Virus record (IMG/VR): IMGVR_UViG_3300018481_000049
Location: 1-34,794 of that record
Direction: 5' to 3' (one strand)
DNA: 34,794 bases
DNA from: a virus
The notes beneath the pieces are model-generated. The model had not been told where the DNA came from. It saw nothing but the letters and a program-made list of their open reading frames with translations, and searched no databases. Shown one piece after another: positions 1,865 to 26,060 of the stretch; within the stretch, counting starts at the first letter, position 1, and every line of letters starts with the position of its first letter. A program made the translations under genes and the position numbers.

Positions 1865-2053
1865 TTACTGTTTGGGCCGGAGGGGAGTCCCGCCAACCAG
1901 CTTCAGAATATCTTCCGAAGAGAGCTCTCGATCCGTCGGAATCGGAACCACGGAATTGGGAAGCGTCGTGTATACCCAATCCCCCGCCTTCATGTTCTCT
2001 TCAGCAGCCTTTTCCAGCTTGTCGAGCGCAGCTTTGTTCGCAGGAGCACTCAT
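1865..2053 (-). CDS. Small hypothetical protein (62 aa) coupled to the tagged metallopeptidase
   Basis: The ATG at 2053 overlaps the TGA of the upstream 477-aa gene as ATGA, so translation is probably coupled. The sequence is hydrophilic with a helical N-terminal half (NKAALDKLEKAAEENMKAGDW) and a Pro-rich tail. No transmembrane segment or known motif is present. It could be a chaperone or inhibitor of the upstream peptidase, or just a small virion protein; nothing in the sequence decides this. Confidence 0.55.
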   Translation of the reverse strand: MSAPANKAALDKLEKAAEENMKAGDWVYTTLPNSVVPIPTDRELSSEDILKLVGGTPLRPKQ

Positions 2054-3483
2054 GTCACACCACCCATTTCGTCGAATAGAGCTTTCGCCCTGGTCACATC
2101 CCCAGGAGACATCTTGGCCCGGAACTCAGGAGTAAAATAATGTCCTGACAATTCTGCCAAGGCTTCTGCCGGTTCTGTGGCAGCGTATTTGCTCAGCTTG
2201 CTGAGTTGCTTGAACGAGAACCCGTGCTTCTTGAGGGTTTGCTTGTGAAACTTGCTTTTATTTATCCCCCAGTTGATTTGTCCTCGGAATCCACCCTTGG
2301 TAAAGGCATCGAAGGCGGGCGGTATATCACCATGAGCTACAGCCAGCATATGACCCATCTCATGGTAGCCCAAGAACTTCTTGGTAAATACCCCAGGCTG
2401 CATGGACTTTACGTACTCTGCCTCTGCCGGAGACAATCCGTCCATAAGGTCGTTATAGAGAAGGCGAGCTTCGCCCTTCTTGATGGACATTACCGCGGCT
2501 GGGCTTTTCATGGCGGCTAGTCCCTCCATGCCCGGGGCATGGGACATAGGGACGACTTCGACTTTCAAGTTGCGTACGGCGGGGTACTTCTCCCGCATCT
2601 CCTCAAAAGTAGAGATGAGTTCGGCATGCCGCCCCTTCACGTAGTCATTCGGAAACCCATTGATGCTACGAATATCGGCATAGCCCTTGGAGGTGTCGAC
2701 CATCAGTTTGTCGGTGTTCTTCAACCGAAAGGCGGGATGGCCATGATCCAGTTTACCTAACGGAGTTTTACTGAGCGGCCCTTTAGCCAGGTCAGATAGG
2801 TCAAACTCAGGAGCTCTTCCTGCTGCGTAATGGCGATAGGCAACGTACCCGCCAATAGCAACGACGCCTACTCCAGCGGCAAGCAAGGCCTTCTTCTGAG
2901 TAGGGCTCAGTCCACCCCGACCCTCGTTGCTTTCTTCCTTCTTCGTCCCAACAGATTCGACTCGTCCGGAAGAGCTTTTCCGAGGCGGAGTAGCATTTCC
3001 AGTGGCGAAACCCTCCGGTGTTCTCTGCTTTGCCGCTTCGTTACGACGAGCAGTACCTCGATCGGAAGTTTCTTCTGCCTTCCGATGCCCCCAGCGCATA
3101 CCCTTGACTCCGTAGTGAGCCAAAGATTCCGGAGGATCCTCGTCCAACTGAGCGTAATATCGCTTCAGCGCCTTGGCTGCCTTTTGCTTCTGATCGTCAG
3201 AGACCCCCTTGAGCCCACCTCGAGCCCCAGCCAAAGCTGCTGCAGCAGCGTGCACACCATTCCGATTCAAGGCCCCGTTAGGAGTCTTGACCGGCAGCTT
3301 GCATTGACTCTTGGAAGTAGGCTCCTCGTCATGAACATGGATCGAACATGCCGCATGCCACTGCTCGATCGAGTAATCGGCCTTGGTATAGTCGCTCCAG
3401 GGCTTTTCGGAGATATGAGCAACAGAGTAGTGCTTGAGCGCCTCCTCCGGGGAGGCGAAATGCTGGACTTGGCCCAGTATCAT
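2050..3483 (-). CDS. Tagged virion protein with HExxH zinc-metallopeptidase-like domain
   Basis: This 477-residue protein has four parts. Residues 1-120 resemble the conserved 'QWHAAC...KLPV...GALN..GVHAAAAAL.GARGG..RYY..PPES' segment found in phage head and protease proteins. Residues 123-135 are the tag HYGVKGMRWGHRK (DNA 3079-3117). A basic linker leads to a membrane-like segment (about 198-219, LLAAGVGVVAIGGYVAY). The C-terminal domain has HEMGH at 374-378 and candidate third-ligand glutamates at 437-444 (EPAEALAE), as in zincins. The ATG at 3483 follows CAGGAGG. Zinc peptidase activity is inferred from motif and spacing only. The enzyme could process head proteins or act in the host after ejection. 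Confidence 0.6.
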   Translation of the reverse strand: MILGQVQHFASPEEALKHYSVAHISEKPWSDYTKADYSIEQWHAACSIHVHDEEPTSKSQCKLPVKTPNGALNRNGVHAAAAALAGARGGLKGVSDDQKQKAAKALKRYYAQLDEDPPESLAHYGVKGMRWGHRKAEETSDRGTARRNEAAKQRTPEGFATGNATPPRKSSSGRVESVGTKKEESNEGRGGLSPTQKKALLAAGVGVVAIGGYVAYRHYAAGRAPEFDLSDLAKGPLSKTPLGKLDHGHPAFRLKNTDKLMVDTSKGYADIRSINGFPNDYVKGRHAELISTFEEMREKYPAVRNLKVEVVPMSHAPGMEGLAAMKSPAAVMSIKKGEARLLYNDLMDGLSPAEAEYVKSMQPGVFTKKFLGYHEMGHMLAVAHGDIPPAFDAFTKGGFRGQINWGINKSKFHKQTLKKHGFSFKQLSKLSKYAATEPAEALAELSGHYFTPEFRAKMSPGDVTRAKALFDEMGGVT

Positions 3484-6051: not shown

Positions 6052-8313
6052 CTAGAATCCTCTCGCCATCGCCTTTCTCCGGACGACTCGTTCGGCACTC
6101 TGCTGACCCTGGCCCTTGAGGAACCCACCTACGAACTTCTTGCCCCCAGAGGTAGTCAGCTGTTTCACCTGCTGCTCGAGTTGGAGCCGATTGGCTACAT
6201 CTTTGAGCTCTTTGTTGGATAGCGCGGCGGTTCCGCTCTTGACGAGCTTGGTCCGGGCTTGCGCCACCTTTACCGCATCTTCATGGGCAGGTTGGTTTTC
6301 TCCGCCCTCTACCTTGATCTTGGTCTTTCGCTTCGTCCCATGCGGAACGATCGACTTGGCCGTGGTTCCTACCGCCGTCGGCTCTGCCTTTCGCTGACCC
6401 CAGCGCATACCCTTGACCCCATAGTGTTCGAGGATAAAGGCGGCGCCGACGTCAACCGAGGACTGGGCCAACCCGGTCTCGACCTGCTTGAGATCGGTAA
6501 TATAGCCCTCATTGTCCATGACAACTTCGAGTGTCGTGAAGTCGTCGATAGCAGCGTGCTTTACCGGACGAGAGCTGACGTCCCAGTAATGCTTCGACTT
6601 GGGAAGCTCTCCGCCCTGAGCAGGTAGTTCGATCCCGCGCTCACGAATCGTATACTGACGATCACCCGAGACGTTCTTCAGCGAATTGGCTGTAGTTTCC
6701 AGCCGCTTGACATAGGTCTCTCTGGCGTCTTTGCGATAGGCTTTCGCCTCTGGAGAAAATGGCTTCTTTACCCGATTGGTAAGCTTGGCGTAATCTCCGT
6801 GCCGAGCCTTGACCGCAGGTAGGTCCTTCTTTCGAAAGTCTGGTTTCGCTCCTCGAATAACCTGTTCGCGAGCCCTTCCACTTTCGACCTGATTCTCGAA
6901 GGTAACATCTCCGACATACCTGGCCGTACCCTTAGCCGCCTTCTTGACTCCGCGTCCAACAGATCGGGCACCTGCGCCAACCTGCGCCTTCCGATGCCCC
7001 CAGCGCATACCCTTGACCCCGTAGTGAGCAAGGAACTCGGCACCGAGATCGGCAGTCTGAGCCATTGCGTCCACTTCGAAGTCGTCGAACTTGAGGCCTA
7101 CGATATGACCAGTGGCATCGCGTAGGATCTTGCCCGAGAAGGTGACGACTTCGTCTTCATCCTCAGCGGCATGCTTGACCCGCTTGGGAAGCGGGGTCGG
7201 AGCGCCTTCCTTGGCGTGAATCGTGAAGTCGTAGCCATCGTTCTTGAACTTGACATCGAGATGCATGGTCTGACGCTTGTTGCCAATCGAGTTGGCCGAT
7301 TGGCGATAAGCATCCTGCATCAATTTCTGAACTTCACCGTCGTACTGCTTCTGCTTCGCAGGGTTCTTCGTCAGATCGTCGGGATACTTCTTGTTGATCG
7401 CGCCGATTTCTCGGTTGAAGCGTTCGCCCGATCCGTTATGGATCTTGACGAAGTTCTCGGCCGACTGGGCCTTCTTCTTGAACTTCTTCTCTTCTCTGTC
7501 AGCCAGCTTGGCCCCGACGCCGCGAACTCCACCTCGGGCCACACGGATCTGGGCAGGCCAGGTAAGCGGTTGGATGACGGGAACGATGACACCGGCGGCA
7601 ATCTTGGCCGCATCAGTAGACAGCTCATGCCCCTGCGGATCCAGATATCGTTGAATCCCTTCTCGGCGTGTTTCCCCCGCCCCACTCGTGTTGTTTCGAA
7701 CTCCCCAGCGCATGCCCTTGACCCCGTAATGCTGGAGATCGCTCATGGCGACGTCCATCGGTATCGCCATCTCGTCAAACTCCTCCCAGTAGTCTTTGAG
7801 CAGAAACTCAGGACCTTCGAAGTCACCGGTCCATACCGCGATCTTGTTGAAGCTGACGTCGTAGATCGATCCGAACTGATCGTCAGGAATCTGCTTGGCC
7901 GGAGTTGCAGGATAACCCAGCGTCAGATGCGGAATCCACGATTGCCCAGGAGCCCCTACTGCTTCAGGAGGTTCGAATTGCTTGGTAGAGTCGTAGGCGG
8001 TCTTGACGTTGGAATCTTTCAGCAGCAAGCTGCGAAAATCCCGAACCGCCTTGAAGTCGTAACGGCCCTTCTTGAAGAAGAGAACATCCGCCTGATCGGC
8101 CCCCAACTCGCCGCGACGATCCACCGGCAGGTAGAATCGCTTCAAGGAGGTGCTTGTCGCATGCTCTACGAACTGCATGATGGATTGAAGATTCGATATC
8201 TGATCTGAATCGCCCAGAAACAGCAGGGTGAGATGGGGAATCTTCTCACTGGAGATCTTCCAGACACGATCGTTCTCATCGGGAATAGCTACGATGACCA
8301 GATTACTACCCAT
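6052..8313 (-). CDS. Triple-tagged protein with N-terminal 2H phosphoesterase domain
   Basis: This 753-residue protein opens with a 2H phosphoesterase (LigT/cyclic phosphodiesterase-like) domain. Its paired H-x-T motifs are H27-L-T29 (IPHLTLLFLGD) and H129-L-T131 (IPHLTLGYP), about 100 residues apart as usual for the family. Such enzymes open 2',3'- or other cyclic phosphodiester bonds; phage Acb1 is one. Three copies of HYGVKGMRWG follow at about 195, 430 and 630 (DNA 7696-7731, 6988-7026, 6388-6426). The two ~200-residue segments ending in tags 2 and 3 look duplicated. The C-terminus is a basic helical region (LSNKELKDVANRLQLEQQVKQL begins near 685). ATG 8313 follows GGAGGTGA. Virion location and substrate are inferred. 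Confidence 0.7.
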   Translation of the reverse strand: MGSNLVIVAIPDENDRVWKISSEKIPHLTLLFLGDSDQISNLQSIMQFVEHATSTSLKRFYLPVDRRGELGADQADVLFFKKGRYDFKAVRDFRSLLLKDSNVKTAYDSTKQFEPPEAVGAPGQSWIPHLTLGYPATPAKQIPDDQFGSIYDVSFNKIAVWTGDFEGPEFLLKDYWEEFDEMAIPMDVAMSDLQHYGVKGMRWGVRNNTSGAGETRREGIQRYLDPQGHELSTDAAKIAAGVIVPVIQPLTWPAQIRVARGGVRGVGAKLADREEKKFKKKAQSAENFVKIHNGSGERFNREIGAINKKYPDDLTKNPAKQKQYDGEVQKLMQDAYRQSANSIGNKRQTMHLDVKFKNDGYDFTIHAKEGAPTPLPKRVKHAAEDEDEVVTFSGKILRDATGHIVGLKFDDFEVDAMAQTADLGAEFLAHYGVKGMRWGHRKAQVGAGARSVGRGVKKAAKGTARYVGDVTFENQVESGRAREQVIRGAKPDFRKKDLPAVKARHGDYAKLTNRVKKPFSPEAKAYRKDARETYVKRLETTANSLKNVSGDRQYTIRERGIELPAQGGELPKSKHYWDVSSRPVKHAAIDDFTTLEVVMDNEGYITDLKQVETGLAQSSVDVGAAFILEHYGVKGMRWGQRKAEPTAVGTTAKSIVPHGTKRKTKIKVEGGENQPAHEDAVKVAQARTKLVKSGTAALSNKELKDVANRLQLEQQVKQLTTSGGKKFVGGFLKGQGQQSAERVVRRKAMARGF

Positions 8314-8333: not shown

Positions 8334-9068
8334 CTAGGAAAGTTCGAGGGTGATGTAAGTAAGAAAGACTTCGAATCGATTGCTTGCGTCTCCGCCGGTC
8401 GGATTGCTAGATCCAGTTTCAGCCCCCATAGTTAGAGCAATGCCATTATCTTGGAGGTTCCCCTTGAAATTGGCGTGTATCGCTTCGCCAAACTCATTGA
8501 ATTGAGCGGCGATACCAGCTTGACCACCTGAGGGTAGCCAAACGTATGGTTCGTAGATGAAGGCATCTTGTGTAACATCTGGTACTAAATCGCTATTCGT
8601 ATCCGCCAAAATTCCACCTACTTTTACAACACGCCTGCTTCTAGCTATGATTACGTCCTCGCCGGTAGAGAGTAAAAGACACATATGGGGAGATGTACCG
8701 GCAAGAACATAAGGCGATCCGCCATCACTAATACCGACGACCGTGCAGGCAATCGGCCAGGGGATGGTGGTTGGTAGTCCTTCGTAGTCGAGAATTTCGG
8801 TTGGCTCGACGAGAACCTTGGGGGTGCTGTAAAGCGTAAGAATTTCGGAGTGGGGGATCGTAAGGCGAACGGTTTGAGGACCCTCTCCACTACCAACCGA
8901 CTCGCCGCCACCTACATAGGCCAACTCCGTCCACGGACTGGTTCCATCACCAATCTTCAACCGGCCGGTATTGATCTCGACTCCGGGCTCCCCCCGAAGA
9001 AGGACGGGATTCAAACTTACCCAGGCAGAAGCATTTCTTCGACGAAATTGAATTGCACGGCCACTCAT
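8334..9068 (-). CDS. Fibre-type protein with Mtd N-terminal domain, 244 aa
   Basis: The N-terminal ~45 residues match the Mtd_N (major tropism determinant N-terminal) repeat: IQFRRRN..AW..LNPVL..GEPG.E..TGRLKIGDG..PW..L. In receptor-binding proteins this module attaches the protein to the virion. The remainder is beta-rich with no clear enzyme motif; a Thr/Val-rich C-terminal domain ends in EVFLTYITLEL. I chose ATG 9068, six bases behind AAGGAGG, over an in-frame GTG that abuts the ribosome binding site. It is likely a tail fibre or host-recognition component, paired with another Mtd_N protein 1.6 kb upstream. Confidence 0.72.
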   Translation of the reverse strand: MSGRAIQFRRRNASAWVSLNPVLLRGEPGVEINTGRLKIGDGTSPWTELAYVGGGESVGSGEGPQTVRLTIPHSEILTLYSTPKVLVEPTEILDYEGLPTTIPWPIACTVVGISDGGSPYVLAGTSPHMCLLLSTGEDVIIARSRRVVKVGGILADTNSDLVPDVTQDAFIYEPYVWLPSGGQAGIAAQFNEFGEAIHANFKGNLQDNGIALTMGAETGSSNPTGGDASNRFEVFLTYITLELS

Positions 9069-9081
9069 GATCACCTCCTTT

Positions 9082-15399: not shown

Positions 15400-15436
15400 G
15401 TTCACACTCCTTTCGTTTGCTTGAACTTGACCGAGT

Positions 15437-15670
15437 TTACCCGGGTGCTGTGATCTCTCGGGCGATAGCGGCGTTCGCCCAGAACATTGCCTCCTCGAGT
15501 GCGGTGATGGCGAGCGACTGCTCCCGGCAAGGAGCCCCCGTCACCTCGACCAGCTCCTCTCCCGCCCCGAGACAGATGGCCCGCACCTGCTCATGACGCT
15601 CTTTCTTCTCCTCGGTGTCCGCAGGATGGTAGTTGAAGCGTCGAGCCAGCTCGTCGTTGGTGATGTGAAT
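15437..15670 (-). CDS. Acb2-like cyclic-nucleotide sponge (anti-CBASS candidate), no canonical start
   Basis: The frame from 15670 to the TAA at 15437 encodes 77 residues but holds no usable ATG, GTG or TTG before the conserved region. A probable start is the ATT at 15670, six bases after GCGAGG; ATC or CTG a little further in are alternatives. The product has the hallmarks of the Acb2 family: DELARRFNYHPA, then ERHEQVR, and the C-terminal signature CREQSLAIT followed by LEEAMFWANAAIARE. Acb2 proteins are small helical hexamers that bind cyclic di- and trinucleotides and so silence CBASS signalling. Start choice is unsure; family call is from pattern only. Confidence 0.7.
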   Translation of the reverse strand: MHITNDELARRFNYHPADTEEKKERHEQVRAICLGAGEELVEVTGAPCREQSLAITALEEAMFWANAAIAREITAPG

Positions 15671-15679
15671 TGTTTGCCT

Positions 15680-15846
15680 CGCTTTCTCGTGGATTGGAAG
15701 AATGTTGAAGGGGGTTTACGGCCCTTTCCAAGGGGTACCTTTCACTTTGTTCCTACAAAAAGTCCCACCGGGGCTATTTTTTAGAGCCGGGCGATACAGG
15801 AGGGGGCCTAATTTTTTGACCCCCTCCCCCCTACCCTTTTCTTCGT
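15680..15846 (-). promoter_or_regulatory. Non-coding gap with G-rich hairpin and A/T-run stem-loops
   Basis: Read on the minus strand, a G-rich run (GGGTAGGGGGGAGGGGG) begins a perfect 8-bp stem, GGAGGGGG with CCCCCTCC, closing a 13-nt A/T-rich loop (about 15805-15833). A second small stem-loop (GGCT/AGCC around an A-run) and a CCC/GGG hairpin before TTTTT (near 15755) follow. The gap lies just upstream of the Acb2-like gene, whose start codon is not canonical. It may be a leaky terminator or a translational control element. No experiment-like evidence in the sequence decides which. Confidence 0.4.
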
Positions 15847-16023
15847 TCATCTTCTCGTAGTTCGTCGTTGTATTTCTCGCATCATGTGACGAACGGTTTC
15901 AGAGAAACGTTTTATTCGATCTCTTTCCCTATCTGTCATCGACCTGACATCAGCTTCTGTCCAACGATGTCGACGATATTGGTATTGCTTTGCTTCTTCT
16001 TCCTCATCATTGTGTTCCGTCAC
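15847..16023 (-). CDS. Small charged protein, 58 aa
   Basis: A GTG at 16023 follows GATGAGGTAACA, and the frame runs 58 residues to a TGA at 15847. The product is highly charged: an acidic start (TEHNDEEEEAK), then a basic, helical remainder (YQYRRHRWTEADVR, RERDRIKRF, MREIQRRTTRR). It has no membrane segment. It lies just behind the 102-aa gene and shares its codon use, so the two were probably acquired together. Function unknown; a nucleic-acid-binding role is possible from its charge. Confidence 0.55.
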   Translation of the reverse strand: MTEHNDEEEEAKQYQYRRHRWTEADVRSMTDRERDRIKRFSETVRHMMREIQRRTTRR

Positions 16024-16040
16024 TGTTACCTCATCTACCT

Positions 16041-16349
16041 TTAGCTTTGCTTAGGTAACGACACTTCTCCTTTTTTTACTTTACGAAACACACCAAGCAC
16101 ATTCTCTCGAACAATCTCATCAATTGCTTCCTGTATCGCACGATTCACATCTGCTTCAGCAAGGTCATCGGATAGCCTTGCTACTCTAGCTAGTAGTCCA
16201 GGCGTATGGTACCCGGCGGCCTGATCCCAAGCAAACCACTCATCCCATTGTGTGAATGGATCGTATGGATTGTCCATTGTTGTCAGCATGTACTCAGGTC
16301 GGCTAGGTACGGTAGGCGTGTCAGCGTCCACTGCTCCATCTCCTATCAT
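16041..16349 (-). CDS. Conserved-type small protein paired with the RNAP-like gene, 102 aa
   Basis: The ATG at 16349 overlaps the TGA of the giant upstream gene (ATGA). The central part, NPYDPFTQWDEWFAWDQ then GYHTPGLLARVARLSDDL and EADVNRAIQEAIDEIV, is a pattern I associate with small phage proteins encoded right after similar large genes. It is acidic, mostly helical and soluble. Translational coupling suggests it acts with the RNA polymerase-like protein, perhaps as an accessory or packaging partner; this is inference. Confidence 0.65.
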   Translation of the reverse strand: MIGDGAVDADTPTVPSRPEYMLTTMDNPYDPFTQWDEWFAWDQAAGYHTPGLLARVARLSDDLAEADVNRAIQEAIDEIVRENVLGVFRKVKKGEVSLPKQS

Positions 16350-19228
16350 GACGCAAGACTTGATTGTAGTGTGGACACAGGAATGTTCAGTGCATCTGCT
16401 ACCTCAGATGGTGTAGCACCTGAGCCTAGCAGTTGCCTAGCCCTAGCCATCATGACATCAGTCATCACTGGATTCTCACGACGAGGTGTAGCACGCTGCC
16501 TAATAGCGTCTAGATCAGCGTTGTTTAGAATCTTCTTCAACATCTCATTAGAGATAGCACCAGCTTGAATAGCTTCCCATTCACGGTCTGTGATAGGAGC
16601 TCTCTTAGATCCTAGTCTAGTCTTACCAGCACCAGTACGAAGTCTAGCTTCGTTCAGTGCTTGACCTTTGATCTTCCTCTGTTCATCCTTCTCCATCTCT
16701 GGATTAGCTCTCTTTAGCTGAGAATAGATCCGTCCTGCCACTACCTGTGCCTGTCTCTCTAGGGGGGAGTTCTTCTCAGCCTCATTCAGCTTCGCCTTGA
16801 GAGAGTTCACCTCATGCTTGTACACCCTGTTAGCTGAGGGCGAATAGGGGATAGGCTTAGTCCTAACCACCTCTCTACGTGCCTCATTAGCCAACGCCTT
16901 GAGTCTATTGGAATGGTCAGCATAGATCTGCTCAATCCGTACACCCCTACCTTCAGAGACAAGGGTATACGCATCAGTAGTCTCAGCCAACTGCTTAGAC
17001 CTGAAGGTAGCAGGCTCATCAAGGGTGATAGTACGCTTCTCACCAGTGCGCTTATCGACAACCTGTTTCTTCTTAGGCTCACCTGTATAAACGTACCGCT
17101 TCTCACCAGTCCTGACATCGATAGTCCCGCTTGAGACACGAACTACTCCTGGACCAGCAGGGGCATCCTTACGCTTAGGCACATGGGTCTGTGCCGTAGC
17201 TCTAGAGATGAGCGTAGACGCACCACGAAGTTGACCCTTTGGATGTACCCCTTGATACGTACGTTTTAGATTGTTGATTCCGTAGGCTTGAGCCGAAGCC
17301 TTGACATCGAGATTGTGTTTCTCGGAATCAATGACCACCATGGAATGACGAACAGCACGAGAAAGCTCGTCATTGTTGGCCCCCTTGATCGTCATGTCGG
17401 TGATCAGGTTGGAGACATCCCCCATGAGCTGCTGCTTTTGAACCGAAGTAACCGTAGGTTTACCATCAGGAAACTTCTTGCTTTTAGGCCCATAGGGAAC
17501 CTTGTAGGTCTGAGGATCGAAGTCCTTCAATCCTTCGAGAGGGGGTTGTTTGCTGATAACACCCCGTCGATTGGGAATGACCACCACACTATCGCCATCG
17601 AAATCAGCACCCGACAAATGTTCAGCGACTTTGGGATGAATAGCTACCGCATCCGGAACATCTCTACCCCCGAACATCTTAGCTACTTCTCGAGAACGGT
17701 TGTTTACCGTAAGCTCAGGGATTTCGAATCGTCCCGCATGGGGGTACCGAATCAAAGCAACGCGCTCTCCGTTGTCAAACGTAGGCGCAAAGATCTCATC
17801 GGGCTTTACCCGATTCGAAGGAAGAATGACTTTGGTTGCCTGCCGAGGCAGGTTAGCCGCTTTGAGATGAACGGCGGCAGAATCGGTCTCATCTCCGAAC
17901 GTTTCAAGAAGCTTTCTCTTGATCTGCGGATTAGTCAAACCTTTGATTTGTTCGAATTCAGAACGCCGTCGATCGAAGGTCACGTCCAACTGGGTCTTGG
18001 CGAAATCAGGAGACTGCTTAGAAAGTACCTGCCGAGAGATGGTTCTCGACCACGTATCCCAATCTCCTTCTTCATGAACAATGTTCATCACCGACGTAGG
18101 CTTACCGTTCTTACCCAGAATCTGGCCGCCCTCTTTGATTACGGCTCCGAAAGGATTGAACTGATCAACCTCTCCGGTTTCCTTGACCTTCTTGAGCGGC
18201 TTCAAAGCATCGAGCTTATTACCCGTCTTCGACTTGTTGGTATTGAACTGAAGATCGACACCAGGAGGAAGATCGTCCTTGTAGACGGCCATGCCTTTGA
18301 GGTAGTGAGTTCCACCCACCGCAATTCGAACCTGAGCATAGCGCGACTTTCCTAGAGAAATGTCCTTTACTCCAGGACGGACGTAGATAACACCATCCGC
18401 GTCAGCTCCGCCCTCTTCCTTGTATCGAACACCTACACGCTTGGCGGAGATATGAAGAGGCGGCTTGAACCCAACATCCTGCCAGCTTCGACCATGATCA
18501 TCGGATTTCTCCGCGATCAATCGAATCTTGTCACGATTGGCGAACGCCTCTTGCTTGGTCACACCCGGCTTGGTAAGGACTAGATACTTAGTTCTTTCTC
18601 CTGTACCCGCTTGCTGAATGTGTACCGGATGAACGTTGTAGCCCTCTTCTTTGAGCATGGAAAGGGCTGTCTTGAACTTGTCCGGACTGATACCGATTCG
18701 TGTCGAAGGATTATCTCCGATGGGAAGATCCTTCTCGACGTTGGCTCCGACGTCGATGAAACCTTTCTCTTCGACCTGTCGCTTGAGCATATCCGCCGTA
18801 GACTGAAGAATATCGAGTTTCTCTAGACGACCCGGTTCCAGAAGCGAACGAACGGTGGATTCGCTCACTTTCTTCTCGTCGGTTGACATCTGCCTTGCAA
18901 TCGCAGATGGCCCCATGCCCTTGTCTCGAAGGCGTTGCGCGGTACGAATCTGTTCTTGCTTTACTTCGTTACCCGCCCTAGACTTCGTAGCTCGAAGATC
19001 CGCTACCGTCATCTGCTCATCTTTGATGACGTTTCCATCTTTATCCACGGGGGAATACGCCTTGGCGATCTCGGATTCCGTCATCCCGTCGATCTTCTTA
19101 TGTTGCTCAATGGTGTCCAAGAATGTCTTGGATCGCTGCAACGGGTTCTCTCCGGACCCCCAAGGATATCTGCCCGACTTGCGGAGAATTCCGTAGTGCA
19201 TGAGATAGTCTTCTTCTGCAACCTTCAC
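16346..19228 (-). CDS. Candidate single-subunit two-barrel RNA polymerase with tag-like N-terminus, 960 aa
   Basis: The key motif is ADFDGDSVVV (DFDGD at 542-546, DNA 17591-17605), the metal-binding loop of beta-prime-type RNA polymerases. It is preceded at the right distance by RYPHAGRFEIP and AIHPKVAEHL, which parallel the NR.PTLHR..IQA and .LHP..C.AF segments of bacterial beta-prime. A possible first barrel lies at 305-335 (HYLKGMAVY, NTNKS), with lysines K311 and K332. The N-terminus (LMHYGILRKSGRYPWGSGE) resembles the HYGVKGMRWG tag, and HTH-like helices occur near 95-130 and at the C-terminus. YonO and crAss-like phage enzymes are known relatives in type. GTG 19228 follows GAGGAGG. Activity is unproven. 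Confidence 0.68.
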   Translation of the reverse strand: MKVAEEDYLMHYGILRKSGRYPWGSGENPLQRSKTFLDTIEQHKKIDGMTESEIAKAYSPVDKDGNVIKDEQMTVADLRATKSRAGNEVKQEQIRTAQRLRDKGMGPSAIARQMSTDEKKVSESTVRSLLEPGRLEKLDILQSTADMLKRQVEEKGFIDVGANVEKDLPIGDNPSTRIGISPDKFKTALSMLKEEGYNVHPVHIQQAGTGERTKYLVLTKPGVTKQEAFANRDKIRLIAEKSDDHGRSWQDVGFKPPLHISAKRVGVRYKEEGGADADGVIYVRPGVKDISLGKSRYAQVRIAVGGTHYLKGMAVYKDDLPPGVDLQFNTNKSKTGNKLDALKPLKKVKETGEVDQFNPFGAVIKEGGQILGKNGKPTSVMNIVHEEGDWDTWSRTISRQVLSKQSPDFAKTQLDVTFDRRRSEFEQIKGLTNPQIKRKLLETFGDETDSAAVHLKAANLPRQATKVILPSNRVKPDEIFAPTFDNGERVALIRYPHAGRFEIPELTVNNRSREVAKMFGGRDVPDAVAIHPKVAEHLSGADFDGDSVVVIPNRRGVISKQPPLEGLKDFDPQTYKVPYGPKSKKFPDGKPTVTSVQKQQLMGDVSNLITDMTIKGANNDELSRAVRHSMVVIDSEKHNLDVKASAQAYGINNLKRTYQGVHPKGQLRGASTLISRATAQTHVPKRKDAPAGPGVVRVSSGTIDVRTGEKRYVYTGEPKKKQVVDKRTGEKRTITLDEPATFRSKQLAETTDAYTLVSEGRGVRIEQIYADHSNRLKALANEARREVVRTKPIPYSPSANRVYKHEVNSLKAKLNEAEKNSPLERQAQVVAGRIYSQLKRANPEMEKDEQRKIKGQALNEARLRTGAGKTRLGSKRAPITDREWEAIQAGAISNEMLKKILNNADLDAIRQRATPRRENPVMTDVMMARARQLLGSGATPSEVADALNIPVSTLQSSLAS

Positions 19229-19806
19229 TACGAAACCTCCTCTCTGAGCCGATTGAGAATCTCATCGAACTTTTCAATTTTGTCCATGATTCCCTTTATG
19301 AAGTATGGATCGGAATCGTACAAATGTACTCTACCGTCCTTATAGAGACGGAGCTCGATGCCCCGTAGAGAAAACGGATCTATCTTGTATTCAAGACAGA
19401 AGAGCGCAGCATAGACTTCGAGCTGATGCTCTGAAACTCGGGTAACCCCAGTCTTGAGATCACTGATACGAAGCAGCCGATACCGATAGGCGATAGCATC
19501 CACCGTACCAAAGGCATTGGGCGAATAGAACAATACCACCTCAGGCGACATCTTGTATTGGATGCACTGGTTGATGTACAACCCAACCGTGGTCGTCTCA
19601 TCATCTTGGACAATTCCCTCTTCGATACAGATCGCAGCGTAGCGATGTTGTTCTATACCCTCCAGTGCCGCGCGCAGAGTCTTGTATCGGAATGCGAGCT
19701 TCTCTTCGTCATAGTTGATCCAGTGATATGAACTAGGACTAAGGAACGCATGTTGCCCCTCGAGATGCGAATGCTTCTTGAAGCGCAGCGAGCACCTCCT
19801 CTTCAT
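19228..19806 (-). CDS. PD-(D/E)XK nuclease, RecB/Cas4-like, about 192 aa
   Basis: The catalytic core is seen as FGTVDAIAY (first Asp), LRISDLKTG (D-x-K) and HQLEVYAAL (the Q-L-x-x-Y motif of RecB/Cas4-type exonucleases). The N-terminal LSPSSYHWINYDEEKL is typical of phage members. The start is uncertain: ATG 19806 is inside the end of the previous gene, and no strong ribosome binding site is seen; a TTG at 19830 is another option. The stop overlaps the start of the RNAP-like gene (TAGTG). It likely degrades or processes DNA ends in replication or recombination. Confidence 0.75.
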   Translation of the reverse strand: MKRRCSLRFKKHSHLEGQHAFLSPSSYHWINYDEEKLAFRYKTLRAALEGIEQHRYAAICIEEGIVQDDETTTVGLYINQCIQYKMSPEVVLFYSPNAFGTVDAIAYRYRLLRISDLKTGVTRVSEHQLEVYAALFCLEYKIDPFSLRGIELRLYKDGRVHLYDSDPYFIKGIMDKIEKFDEILNRLREEVS

Positions 19807-20053
19807 TTTCAGGATAGACGTAGGCTGCAAACGACATGTCTGCGAGCTGCTCTACGAAGTAATCCTGATTCGGTTGACGCTTCGCTGTACGTGATGCCTT
19901 GATCTCCAGAGAAGCCCAAGTGTCGCCATACAGCAGCGTCCAATCAAGCATTCCCTGTTGATATCGAGGGTCGTTTCTCAGGAGAACACATCCTGGGAAA
20001 GTACGTTTGAGCTTCTTGATGAACTTCGTTTGAAACGCAGATTCAGCAGGCAT
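19739..20053 (-). CDS. VRR-NUC/resolvase-like small nuclease, 104 aa
   Basis: The ATG at 20053 follows GAAAGGAGG. The sequence FPGCVLLRNDPRYQQGMLDW, then YGDTWASLEIKAS, matches small PD-(D/E)XK nucleases of the VRR-NUC or phage resolvase type (a D near residue 37, then E-x-K). QPNQDYFVEQL supplies the conserved helix. The C-terminal part overlaps the next nuclease gene by 68 bases. It may cut branched DNA during replication or before packaging. A TATAAT box lies about 60 bases upstream, so this gene may head a transcript that includes the RNAP-like gene. Confidence 0.7.
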   Translation of the reverse strand: MPAESAFQTKFIKKLKRTFPGCVLLRNDPRYQQGMLDWTLLYGDTWASLEIKASRTAKRQPNQDYFVEQLADMSFAAYVYPENEEEVLAALQEAFASRGATCVP

Positions 20054-20112
20054 GATCCTCCTTTCATCGAGAAAAAAAGAGACATCAACTTCGAGATACT
20101 TGCCCTCCTTCT

Positions 20113-20148
20113 ATTATATGCCGCGATTTAGTCGCGTCCCAGTATCTG
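20113..20148 (-). promoter_or_regulatory. TATAAT box with upstream CAGATACTGGGA and a CGCGA palindrome
   Basis: On the minus strand the order is CAGATACTGGGA (20148-20137), the inverted repeat CGCGA-CTAAA-TCGCG, then GGCATATAAT (TATAAT at 20118-20113), followed about 60 bases later by the nuclease gene start. A consensus -35 box is missing; the repeat motif lies near the -35 position instead. It looks like a promoter with an operator or an activator site. A phage polymerase promoter is a further option. Confidence 0.5.
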
Positions 20149-21685: not shown

Positions 21686-22088
21686 ACCCTCCCTTTCTGG
21701 CAAATCTTGGCAAAATCTTGGCAAAACGGGCAAATAGATACTGGGAATTCCCCTAAATAGCGGGCTTTTCAGCTCCCAGTATCTGCCAAGATTTTTGAGG
21801 TAAAAAGTTTCTACTGAAACGCATGTCAGTATCTGTTACTCCTATGAGGGTATGTATATACTTGCGCGGGGGCGCGTAGGGAGTATAAACAGATATTGGC
21901 ATGAACGATATAAAAACTTTTTTGCCCTGAAATCTTGGCAAGCCCTTTTCAAGATAAAAAGCTCGAGATGCAGGACTTTTGTTCACAAAATCTGCCAAAA
22001 AAAATCTTGGCAAAATGCTTGGCAAAGCGATTTTCGAGCGGGAACGCGCCAACTTAGCTCGAAAAACCCCATTCCCAGTATCTGAATT
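21686..22088. repeat. Non-coding iteron-like tract: candidate replication origin or control region
   Basis: This AT-rich, 400-nt gap lies between the helicase stop and the next gene. Two motif families repeat in it. (1) AATCTTGGCAAAA-type: plus-strand copies at about 21698, 21706, 21717, 21931, 22003 and 22018, and inverted copies at about 21784 and 21991. (2) TCCCAGTATCTG: exact at 21774-21785 and 22073-22084, variant at 21825-21835, inverted at 21736-21746 and 21890-21900. A third exact copy lies at 20137-20148 outside the tract. Clustered direct and inverted repeats next to a helicase gene suit a replication origin or a multi-site regulator target. Confidence 0.6.
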
Positions 22089-23309
22089 CTACCTTTGGTA
22101 TAGAAACTCTGCAAATTCCTCGCCTGTCATGTCAAAATGCTTGGTCTGGAAATTCTTCTTGCTCTTGAGCGACCTCCAGATCGCCCAGTCGATGGCCGCC
22201 TTGGATCTCAGCGTGTAGTAATAGAGATCCTCGTACGGAGTATTGATCCGGTCTATCCGGCCGTGGGCCTGCTCCCACAGCTTGTACGAATAGGTGAGGC
22301 TCCAGAAGCACATGGCATTGGTGGTCGTGCAGTTCCAGCCCTCGGCACCTGCGATGTATTGCACGACGTAGATCCATTTGTCCGTCTCGGGAATCGCCTG
22401 ATGCTTGTGGCCGTTCCATTCGGCGTAGGCATAATCGGTTTCCGACTCCTTCAGCGTTCTTAGGATGGCCAGTTCGTAATCGAAGTTGTAGAAGATGATG
22501 AGGCGGGGATGCTCTGCCAACAGCTTCCACACCTCGCCCAGGCGCGAGGGATCCGAGTTGGTGACCTTGCGCATCTGATGAAACAGATCAGCGATGTCCC
22601 GGATAGGCTTGTCCTCAAAGATGTTCCACCGCCCATGCGAGACGCGGGCCATGGTGATCTCGTCGAACTCGCACCACACGTTGACGGGATGCCGCTTGGT
22701 CTCCTTGGGGTAGGGCATGTGGATGAGGATCTGGTTACGCTGGCGCACCAGGCGCTGGACGTTGACGTATCTCTCCACCTTGGGATACTTGGAGAACGGG
22801 GCGTAGATCACGTGCTCGTGCTTGAACTCGGTGCGGTTGCGGTAAAAGCCGTTGGCGATGAACACCGGGATGTAGTCCAGCCAGGTATCCCCAGGGGTGG
22901 CCGAGAGGAGGATCCAGCGGTTCTTCTTGGCGATCTTCAGGAAGGCCTTGGTCCACTTGCCGTTTCCGACCAGGCGTTGCTCGTCGAAGATGAAGAACTG
23001 ATCCTTCACGTCTATGTACTTGTGAAGGTTGTTCCAGGAGTCGACGGTGAGGATCCCCGCCATCGTCGCGTCCGGTTCCTTACCGATCCCGAAACGCGCG
23101 GCCTCGGTCACCCAGTCCATCGAGTCCCGCTTCTTGGCCGTAGTGATGACGTACACATCCTGCTGCTTCTCGGTCAGCATGTAGTAGGCCAGGGCCACTC
23201 GGCTCTTGCCAGACCCAACCCCTCCCCACAGAATATTACCATCTTGGAGCTTGGCCAGGGCCTTCTTCTGATGCGGATCCATCTTCACGGCGGTGCGAAT
23301 CTCTGCCAT
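22089..23309 (-). CDS. SF2 helicase, DEAD/SNF2-type, 406 aa
   Basis: This ATP-dependent DNA helicase or translocase has a full motif set: motif I GGVGSGKS (29-36), motif II DEQR (109-112), motif III LSATPGD (135-141), and in the second lobe motif V IAGAEGWN and motif VI EQAHGRIDRIN (about 355-366). The length is that of small phage SF2 enzymes involved in replication initiation or fork restart. The ATG at 23309 follows AAAGGAGGTGACGG. The repeat tract just behind the gene fits a replication function. G+C and codon use are higher than in the flanking small genes. Confidence 0.88.
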   Translation of the reverse strand: MAEIRTAVKMDPHQKKALAKLQDGNILWGGVGSGKSRVALAYYMLTEKQQDVYVITTAKKRDSMDWVTEAARFGIGKEPDATMAGILTVDSWNNLHKYIDVKDQFFIFDEQRLVGNGKWTKAFLKIAKKNRWILLSATPGDTWLDYIPVFIANGFYRNRTEFKHEHVIYAPFSKYPKVERYVNVQRLVRQRNQILIHMPYPKETKRHPVNVWCEFDEITMARVSHGRWNIFEDKPIRDIADLFHQMRKVTNSDPSRLGEVWKLLAEHPRLIIFYNFDYELAILRTLKESETDYAYAEWNGHKHQAIPETDKWIYVVQYIAGAEGWNCTTTNAMCFWSLTYSYKLWEQAHGRIDRINTPYEDLYYYTLRSKAAIDWAIWRSLKSKKNFQTKHFDMTGEEFAEFLYQR

Positions 23310-24381: not shown

Positions 24382-24609
24382 TTAGAATAACCTTCCTTGT
24401 TCATCGTCCTCATCTTCATCCTTCGGCTCTTCAACCGGAGGAAGCTTCGGATCTATCTTGGGCTCTATTTTCGGCCAGCCGTCTCTCTCGAAGCGAAGGA
24501 AGACAGCGATGACCTGCTCGTCAGACCACCCGGCCACCTTTTCGTGCCATGACCAGCCGGGATAGGCCGTGGACAGTCGGTTACGTTTCTTGCCAATATC
24601 TGAAGTCAT
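24382..24609 (-). CDS. Small hypothetical protein with acidic tail, 75 aa
   Basis: The ATG at 24609 overlaps the TGA of the phosphatase gene (ATGA). A W-rich region (STAYPGWSWHEKVAGW) and a helix (SDEQVIAVFLRFERDGW) come first; the tail is Pro- and acid-rich (EEPKDEDEDDEQGRLF). No family recognised. It may be a partner of the phosphatase by virtue of coupling. Confidence 0.5.
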   Translation of the reverse strand: MTSDIGKKRNRLSTAYPGWSWHEKVAGWSDEQVIAVFLRFERDGWPKIEPKIDPKLPPVEEPKDEDEDDEQGRLF

Positions 24610-25157
24610 TTCATATCGGTGAGCTCGTTCAAGTGGAGACCCTTTCGCCACATTTCGGCAGGCATGAATCGCAATGCCGCGTTCTCAGCACATTCCTCGT
24701 CCTCGGGACGATCACCGACAAACAGTCCCAGATGCGGTGGGTAGATTTCTCCGGTTTTCTCGTTCAGGTCCAGTGCGGTCTCGATGACCAACCCAGGCCT
24801 TGGTTTGCGGCACCAGCATACGGCCATCTCCGGGGTTTCGGCGTCAGGATGATGTGAGCACCAGGCGATCTTGTCAAAAGCGCCATTACACTGCTTCTGG
24901 GTCTCGTTCATGGCGGAGACACACGTCTCCATGGTCATGTACCCAAGCGCAATACCCCCTTGGTTGCTGATTGCAATAATCCGCCATCCAAGAGCCCGAT
25001 AGTTCGAGAGTAGTGCGGGAACTTCGTCAAAGATGCGAACATCTTCGGGACCGTTGGCGAATCGTCCCAGCTCGTCTTTACCCCATCGCACCGTGCCATC
25101 AAGGTCGAGATAGAGTACCGGAACCATCTTCTCGCCGGTAAGCGCGCTTGCCGTCAT
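24606..25157 (-). CDS. HAD-superfamily phosphatase (GmhB/PNKP-type), 183 aa
   Basis: All four HAD motifs are present: LYLDLDGTV (nucleophile DxD), ISNQGGI (motif II Ser/Asn), CRKPRPG (motif III Lys) and VGDRPEDE (motif IV). A Cys/His zinc loop (WCSHHPDAE...CWC) before motif III is typical of GmhB-type D,D-heptose 1,7-bisphosphatases and histidinol phosphatases. The start at ATG 25157 overlaps the previous stop (ATGA). In a phage it might act on sugar phosphates or as a 3'-phosphatase for nucleic-acid ends. Confidence 0.78.
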   Translation of the reverse strand: MTASALTGEKMVPVLYLDLDGTVRWGKDELGRFANGPEDVRIFDEVPALLSNYRALGWRIIAISNQGGIALGYMTMETCVSAMNETQKQCNGAFDKIAWCSHHPDAETPEMAVCWCRKPRPGLVIETALDLNEKTGEIYPPHLGLFVGDRPEDEECAENAALRFMPAEMWRKGLHLNELTDMK

Positions 25158-25372
25158 GAAGGTCTCGCTCTTTTCGTAGATTGGGCATTGCGAATGATCC
25201 TGCGGGCCTCGGCTTCGCATTCTTCCGGGGTACCGGAGAAGTCGCCTTCGATGAAGAAGGTCGAGCCGTTGACGCTGACCAACGCGGCGTGCCTGGAGTT
25301 GGAGACGATGAAGCTCTCGTCCGGGTGTTCCAGCATTTCGTCGTACATGTGATCCAAGGTGTTGTAATGCAT
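25154..25372 (-). CDS. Small hypothetical protein, 72 aa
   Basis: The ATG at 25372 has AGGAGG seven bases upstream, immediately after the T-run of a terminator; a longer frame to 25417 would start inside that terminator. The product reads YNTLDHMYDEMLEHPDESF, then strands (AALVSVNGSTFFIEGDF) and a C-terminal helix (CEAEARRIIRNAQ). Soluble and acidic, no known motif. It is coupled to the HAD phosphatase by ATGA. Confidence 0.55.
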   Translation of the reverse strand: MHYNTLDHMYDEMLEHPDESFIVSNSRHAALVSVNGSTFFIEGDFSGTPEECEAEARRIIRNAQSTKRARPS

Positions 25373-25663: not shown

Positions 25664-25689
25664 ATCTTTCCTTTCACAGGGTGGGGTTC

Positions 25690-25695
25690 ATTATA
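25690..25695 (-). promoter_or_regulatory. TATAAT -10 box before the 80-aa gene
   Basis: The minus strand reads GGGCATATAATGAACCCC just after a terminator. No good -35 box is visible 16-18 bases upstream. It shares TATAATGAACC with the box at 26035, so a common initiation signal is plausible. Confidence 0.5.
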
Positions 25696-25715
25696 TGCCC
25701 TGTATTCGACGCGAG

Positions 25716-26006: not shown

Positions 26007-26034
26007 GGATACTCCTTGGTGGTTGGGTAGGTTC

Positions 26035-26040
26035 ATTATA
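26035..26040 (-). promoter_or_regulatory. TATAAT -10 box before the 82-aa gene
   Basis: The minus strand reads GGTCTATAATGAACC, about 28 bases upstream of the start codon. The nearest -35-like sequence is poor. The shared downstream GAACC with the box at 25690 suggests the two are of common origin. Confidence 0.5.
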
Positions 26041-26060
26041 GACCGAGAAATATCCGCGAA

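Follow-up and report, generated by a model that had tools for sequence, protein, structure and literature searches.

A predicted two-barrel RNA polymerase, encoded as a free-standing protein in a phage lineage, with an associated promoter-like element and a putative N-terminal packaging tag

The window analysed here, a 34,794-base virus record from IMG/VR that is probably a fragment and ends inside a DNA polymerase gene, encodes a predicted two-barrel RNA polymerase of 960 amino acids on its minus strand (16346-19228; GTG start, no internal stops). Homology, fold class and conserved catalytic residues place this protein among the single-chain two-barrel enzymes of the QDE-1/YonO/crAss-gp66 superfamily, and from fold and residues it would be expected to synthesise RNA. 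A promoter-like element of about 30 bp precedes early genes in related phages and is associated with the polymerase gene. We consider it likely that the protein is a DNA-dependent RNA polymerase which is loaded into the particle by an N-terminal tag, injected, and uses this element as the promoter of the early genes.

The motifs on which a sequence-only reading had based a polymerase candidate were found at the positions given there: RYPHAGRFEIP at residues 494-504, AIHPKVAEHL at 529-538, ADFDGDSVVV at 541-550 (ADFDGD at 541-546) and two lysines, K311 and K332. In an alignment of 77 homologues with 43-76% identity to the window protein, K311, K332, R494, P496, H497, E502 and residues 540-546 (GADFDGD) are invariant, and therefore a chance origin of the motifs can be dismissed. 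The DxDGD triad is found in a beta-prime-like context, with an invariant DFDGD and RxPH upstream. The predicted catalytic DFDGD (residues 542-546, 17591-17605, minus strand), assigned by its conservation in the 77 homologues, belongs to the second barrel region (DPBB-A, residues 461-560, 17549-17848, minus strand), which shows the beta-prime-like succession RxPH ... HPxV ... ADFDGD. The first barrel region (DPBB-B, residues 261-345, 18194-18448, minus strand) contains K311 and K332 and was assigned by Foldseek and by analogy to QDE-1, based on its residues Q736, K743 and K767. In QDE-1, the first barrel holds K743 and K767 and the second D1007, D1009 and D1011; K311, K332 and D542, D544 and D546 of the window protein follow in the same order with similar spacing. 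A bridge-helix-like segment (MGxVSNLITDMT ... HSMVVID, residues 598-660, 17249-17437, minus strand) was recognised by the YonO profile alignment and by conservation.

Sigma70_r4-like matches were obtained for 29 of 33 polymerase homologues, and HTH matches were seen close to the N terminus as well as at the C-terminal end. Residues 36-135 (18824-19123, minus strand) were taken as a putative helical/HTH region, for which relatives show Pfam matches of the Sigma70_r4-like and HTH kind, and Pfam and the model indicate a C-terminal HTH at residues 918-956 (16361-16477, minus strand). By these matches, DNA-binding domains appear to be built into the polymerase chain.

Since sequence searches of the PDB were uninformative, with only spurious matches from single-sequence phmmer and only HTH, designed-repeat and other chance-level matches from profile hmmsearch, a comparison of structures was needed. 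The AlphaFold model built from the 77-homologue alignment reached a pLDDT of 86.8 and a pTM of 0.76. The check proposed in the sequence-only reading, structure prediction followed by a Foldseek search, returned two-barrel polymerases as the significant PDB matches: QDE-1 (E 6e-9), P74-26 gp62 (7e-7), RDR2 (4e-6) and crAss phi14:2 gp66 (5e-4). The proposed two-barrel RNA polymerase is thereby supported. The matches to QDE-1, gp62 and RDR2 have a Foldseek probability of 1.00 and long alignments, in which the barrels were judged together. Weaker structural matches, with E above 0.001, were those to bacterial beta-prime and Rpb1. The global TM-scores of the model to the solved structures are low (0.17-0.30), as would be expected if the domain arrangement differs. 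At the level of profiles, the YonO family aligns over residues 470-613, comprising RxPH, DFDGD and the MGxVSN segment (P 4.6e-5), with a score of 52 compared to at most 27 for 12 column-shuffled profiles and one reversed profile. This similarity is not full-length, as only about 131 columns align. The YonO family profile was significant, whereas hhalign comparisons with individual YonO and gp64 sequences were not.

Residues 3-958 of the window polymerase match positions 7-906 of the 909 of PHROG 4291 (1138 bits) and hence the full length of the profile. Full-length homologues were detected by tblastn in about 250 of 50,697 phage records, the carriers being assigned to Arthrobacter (95), Gordonia (55), Streptomyces (54), Lactococcus (13) and others. 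Further homologues occur at more than 500 IMG/VR loci and at 138 loci of the bacterial and archaeal genome collection, the latter mostly from Clostridia. The annotations in use are "RNA-dependent RNA polymerase", "helix-turn-helix" protein and "hypothetical". Those members of PHROG 4291 which RefSeq calls "RNA-dependent RNA polymerase", from 1706-like and actinobacterial phages, are full-length homologues with 35-52% identity and share tag and gene order with the window protein; in the literature searched, the name is an annotation only, without function or promoter. An enzyme that copies RNA in the manner of QDE-1 and RDR2, as this name implies, is very unlikely. The cellular RNA-dependent RNA polymerases are the best structural and Pfam matches, and QDE-1 and RDR2 possess the equivalent lysines and aspartates, but they are eukaryotic and act in RNA silencing, and the window protein scores 19.5 bits with Pfam PF05183, under the gathering score of 23.8. 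In addition, the context is that of a dsDNA phage, the related YonO is a DNA-dependent enzyme (PMC5467207), and promoter-like DNA elements track the polymerase gene. For these reasons, the name was rejected as a description of function.

The polymerase gene is part of a conserved arrangement on the minus strand. An endonuclease gene (VRR-Nuc-like, PHROG 93, 19739-20053) is the first of the operon and is followed by a Cas4-type exonuclease gene (PHROG 3953, 19228-19830) directly upstream of the polymerase. The order of exonuclease and polymerase is also found in ReqiPoco6, GirlPower, Mudcat, Petito, Count, Daddyjeff and FP_oengus, and the endonuclease gene is syntenic in the same seven phages. 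After the polymerase lies a small gene (PHROG 4303, 16041-16349, minus strand), which corresponds by position to 1706 orf76 and ReqiPoco6 gp107. The adjoining gap without assigned gene (15406-16040) presumably represents the packaging end, as relatives have a genome end (cos) here and the cos of ReqiPoco6 lies at the equivalent place; 3' cos ends are described for the P078 group (PMC4110766). In phage 1706, repeated CTATCACGAAAAAACTTCGGGAAAACTTCGGGAT blocks lie upstream of orf75 (52082), before the polymerase gene.

The promoter-like element has the form CGCA-N4-TTACA-N4-CTATAATGA. On the coding strand ahead of early genes, it was found in GirlPower (a Streptomyces phage), ReqiPoco6, Petito (a Gordonia phage), Count and Mudcat and, in diverged form, in the Lactococcus phages P162 and 1706. 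The repeated intergenic words of GirlPower and ReqiPoco6 are identical and part of TCGCA-N4-TTACA-N4-CTATAATGAGACCCC, and Petito shows the same form. The element reads TATAATGACACC in Count, TATAATAGA in Daddyjeff, TTTTACATACCCTATAATGAAAG in P162 and TTTTACATATACTATAGTAGAAAG in 1706. With a weight matrix built from four phages, 10 copies were determined in GirlPower, 13 in ReqiPoco6, 12 in Petito, 13 in Count, 10 in P162 and 7 in Mudcat, and the scan of these six phages showed no copies on the opposite strand. The element was not found by weight-matrix scan in the Faecalibacterium phage FP_oengus. Most copies fall into the region that extends from the tail/lysis genes to the DNA polymerase gene, and a few into the replication module; in the genomes scanned in full, no copy stands ahead of structural genes. 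The element also immediately precedes tRNAs or similar sequences in ReqiPoco6 (42668), P162 (24241 and 29261) and 1706 (31068), with only the ReqiPoco6 tRNA annotated; this suggests that the phage polymerase makes them.

Two copies were identified in the window, both on the minus strand: TCGCGTCGAATACAGGGCATATAATGAACC (25685-25714, score 21.6), which comes after a terminator-like hairpin and before an ORF of 80 amino acids (ATG 25663), and TCGCGGATATTTCTCGGTCTATAATGAACC (26030-26059, score 16.1) before an ORF of 82 amino acids (ATG 26006). In 20 simulated windows, the best whole-window score was 6.8. A weaker candidate is the variant TATAATAGAAGG before the endonuclease-exonuclease-polymerase operon (20108-20137, minus strand), whose score of -3.6 is not distinct on its own; it was retained for its conserved position, since variants occur there in six other phages. 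Its presence before the operon suggests that the polymerase also drives its own production.

The distribution of the element follows that of the polymerase. A 43-nt consensus matched 227 of the 50,697 phage records (Arthrobacter 95, Gordonia 55, Streptomyces 54, Rhodococcus 4), and the reversed control matched 19 unrelated records. Compared as genus counts, the numbers of records with element and with polymerase are equal for Arthrobacter, Gordonia, Streptomyces, Rhodococcus, Siphovirus contig89 and Caudovirus; by these counts, the element is present in most of the about 250 database phages carrying the polymerase. When IMG/VR contigs above 30 kb were chosen by the motif, 31 of 40 encoded the polymerase (two of the 31 as short partial matches), as did 24 of the 25 with a length of 40 kb or more. 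Chosen by the polymerase, 12 of 12 contigs carried the element with 2-9 copies each, always on one strand per contig, and 0 matches to the reversed pattern were found in them. The exact core pattern was present in 1 of 80 genome-collection loci, which mostly stop short of the early region. Because these phages share ancestry, and other genes as well, the association ties the element to the lineage. Judged by sequence, the polymerase is the most likely reader of the element; another phage factor, or host sigma-A via the TATAAT, could also read it.

If the element were read by sigma-A or by another phage factor, the polymerase could be devoted to the late genes, as its relative YonO is in SPbeta (PMC5467207). 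The sigma-A-like -10 within the element would fit this explanation, which we nevertheless consider quite unlikely. TTACA is only five bases away from TATAAT and thus is not a sigma-70 -35 box, no such box is present in the element at sigma spacing, and phages of hosts from Lactococcus to Streptomyces have retained the same TTACA block upstream. The candidate cognate promoters furthermore sit almost only before early genes, and structural genes are without one in the genomes scanned in full; early genes are therefore favoured over later ones as the targets.

Packaging of the polymerase is suggested by its N-terminal tag MHYGILRKSGRYPWGSG (residues 10-26, 19151-19201, minus strand), which follows the pattern HYG..SGRYPWGSG in the family. 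Its mean conservation of 3.62 bits, compared to 2.5 bits overall, is attained by only 40 of 944 stretches and matches that of the active site; yet the tag is modelled as disordered, residues 1-32 showing a pLDDT below 50. A conserved but disordered tag suits a short binding peptide. The relatives of the tag which the sequence-only reading had noticed in two virion-module proteins could be verified by Pfam and tag search: HYGVKGMRWG (DUF7211) occurs once in the ORF at 2050-3483 and three times in the ORF at 6052-8313, both on the minus strand. Of the 76 proteins of Lactococcus phage 1706, only orf7 and the polymerase homologue orf75 have HYG-type tags; the structural label, which 11 proteins bear, was given to both of them (hypergeometric P 0.02). 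The label "structural protein" was given to orf75 by the depositors and is repeated in a note of the ReqiPoco6 record; it reportedly rests on virion proteomics. Similar tags are found in ReqiPoco6, GirlPower and P162 on proteins encoded beside the terminase gene; for ReqiPoco6 and GirlPower, the genes concerned lie between those for terminase and portal. The earlier suggestion that the polymerase is possibly carried in the virion is strengthened by the tag and by the label that the 1706 homologue bears, and the polymerase is probably packaged in the particle. The same label would agree with a degenerate or repurposed two-barrel protein of purely structural role, which is scarcely credible given that none of the 77 sequences departs from the catalytic aspartates and lysines.

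Tags of the form HYGVKGMKWG (DUF7211), one to three per protein, were observed in the window ORFs 6052-8313 and 2050-3483, in ReqiPoco6 gp018-gp023 and in GirlPower gp8-gp11, mostly on unnamed proteins encoded between terminase and portal. This tag looks like a shared virion-cargo signal, and the polymerase tag may have the same function. The N terminus of the ORF 6052-8313 additionally showed a weak match to 2'-5' RNA ligase/LigT phosphoesterase (E 0.003), possibly a virion-carried enzyme.

Alternatively, the polymerase could be a non-virion enzyme that is made early by the host RNA polymerase and then transcribes the element-bearing genes, the tag having another role. The gene's place within the replication module agrees with this, and so do the variant element that may belong to it and the TATAAT of the elements, which might serve host sigma-A. 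However, 1706 orf75 was deposited as structural and the tag has kin on proteins encoded between terminase and portal, so that we regard a non-virion enzyme as rather unlikely. According to the preferred reading of a packaged and injected enzyme, the polymerase would be loaded into the capsid, probably through the HYG...SGRYPWGSG peptide, and would enter the cell together with the DNA. There it would recognise the promoter (CGCA-N4-TTACA-N4-CTATAATGA and its lineage variants), probably via its own HTH domains, initiate just downstream of TATAATGA and transcribe the early genes, and the variant element of the operon would allow renewed production of the polymerase.

Among known enzymes, YonO of SPbeta is likewise a single-chain two-barrel enzyme of about 100 kDa, in which RxPH, DxDGD and the bridge-helix segment align; it differs by the lack of an HYG tag, by its late-gene transcription and by a similarity limited to about 130 residues. 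The virion RNA polymerase gp66 of the crAss-like phage phi14:2 (6vr4) shares the two-barrel fold and is packaged, but its chain comprises 2,166 residues, whereas the window protein is free-standing and carries a short tag. The fold is also common to gp96 (vRNAP) and gp64 (nvRNAP) of Thermus phage P23-45 (P74-26 gp62, 8f5m); here gp96 is fused to the tape measure, the promoter is different and no tag is present. The window protein, a free-standing ORF, shows no fusion into a giant virion protein of the crAss gp66 or P23-45 gp96 type. The N4 vRNAP, which has a T7-like fold, is injected and transcribes early genes, and its likeness to the proposed role is an analogy only. Phage-specific promoters that track the enzyme are described for the P23-45 type (PMC10770324).

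The two-barrel fold and the concept of virion-borne polymerases were already known (PMC5467207, PMC10770324), and the survey data of the latter paper may already list this polymerase family. In the open-access literature searched, there was no report of a free-standing polymerase with a tag and with a promoter conserved across phages of two bacterial phyla, and a search for the element gave no relevant paper and one unrelated chance match. It is evenly balanced, in our judgement, whether the about 250 actinobacterial, lactococcal and related phages carry an unrecognised type of virion polymerase, which would be free-standing, loaded by an HYG tag acting as a general cargo signal also on DUF7211 proteins, and provided with its own compact early promoter from Lactococcus to Streptomyces. 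If so, hundreds of Streptomyces, Gordonia, Arthrobacter, Rhodococcus and Lactococcus phages would bring a packaged polymerase of their own to the start of infection. The tag would then represent a short signal for loading into the capsid, and the many early genes that follow the promoters could automatically be listed as candidate host-takeover genes. The enzyme and its compact predicted promoter are directly testable in vitro and could yield a new orthogonal transcription system.

Elsewhere in the window, a polynucleotide kinase 3'-phosphatase domain was detected at 24606-25220, where PF08645 scored 27.7 bits and so exceeded the Pfam cut-off, and a tail-fibre-type protein with the N-terminal domain of Mtd (major tropism determinant) at 8334-9074. 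The region 21702-22144 contains direct and inverted AAATCTTGGCAAAAT repeats, possibly a replication origin or a regulator site.
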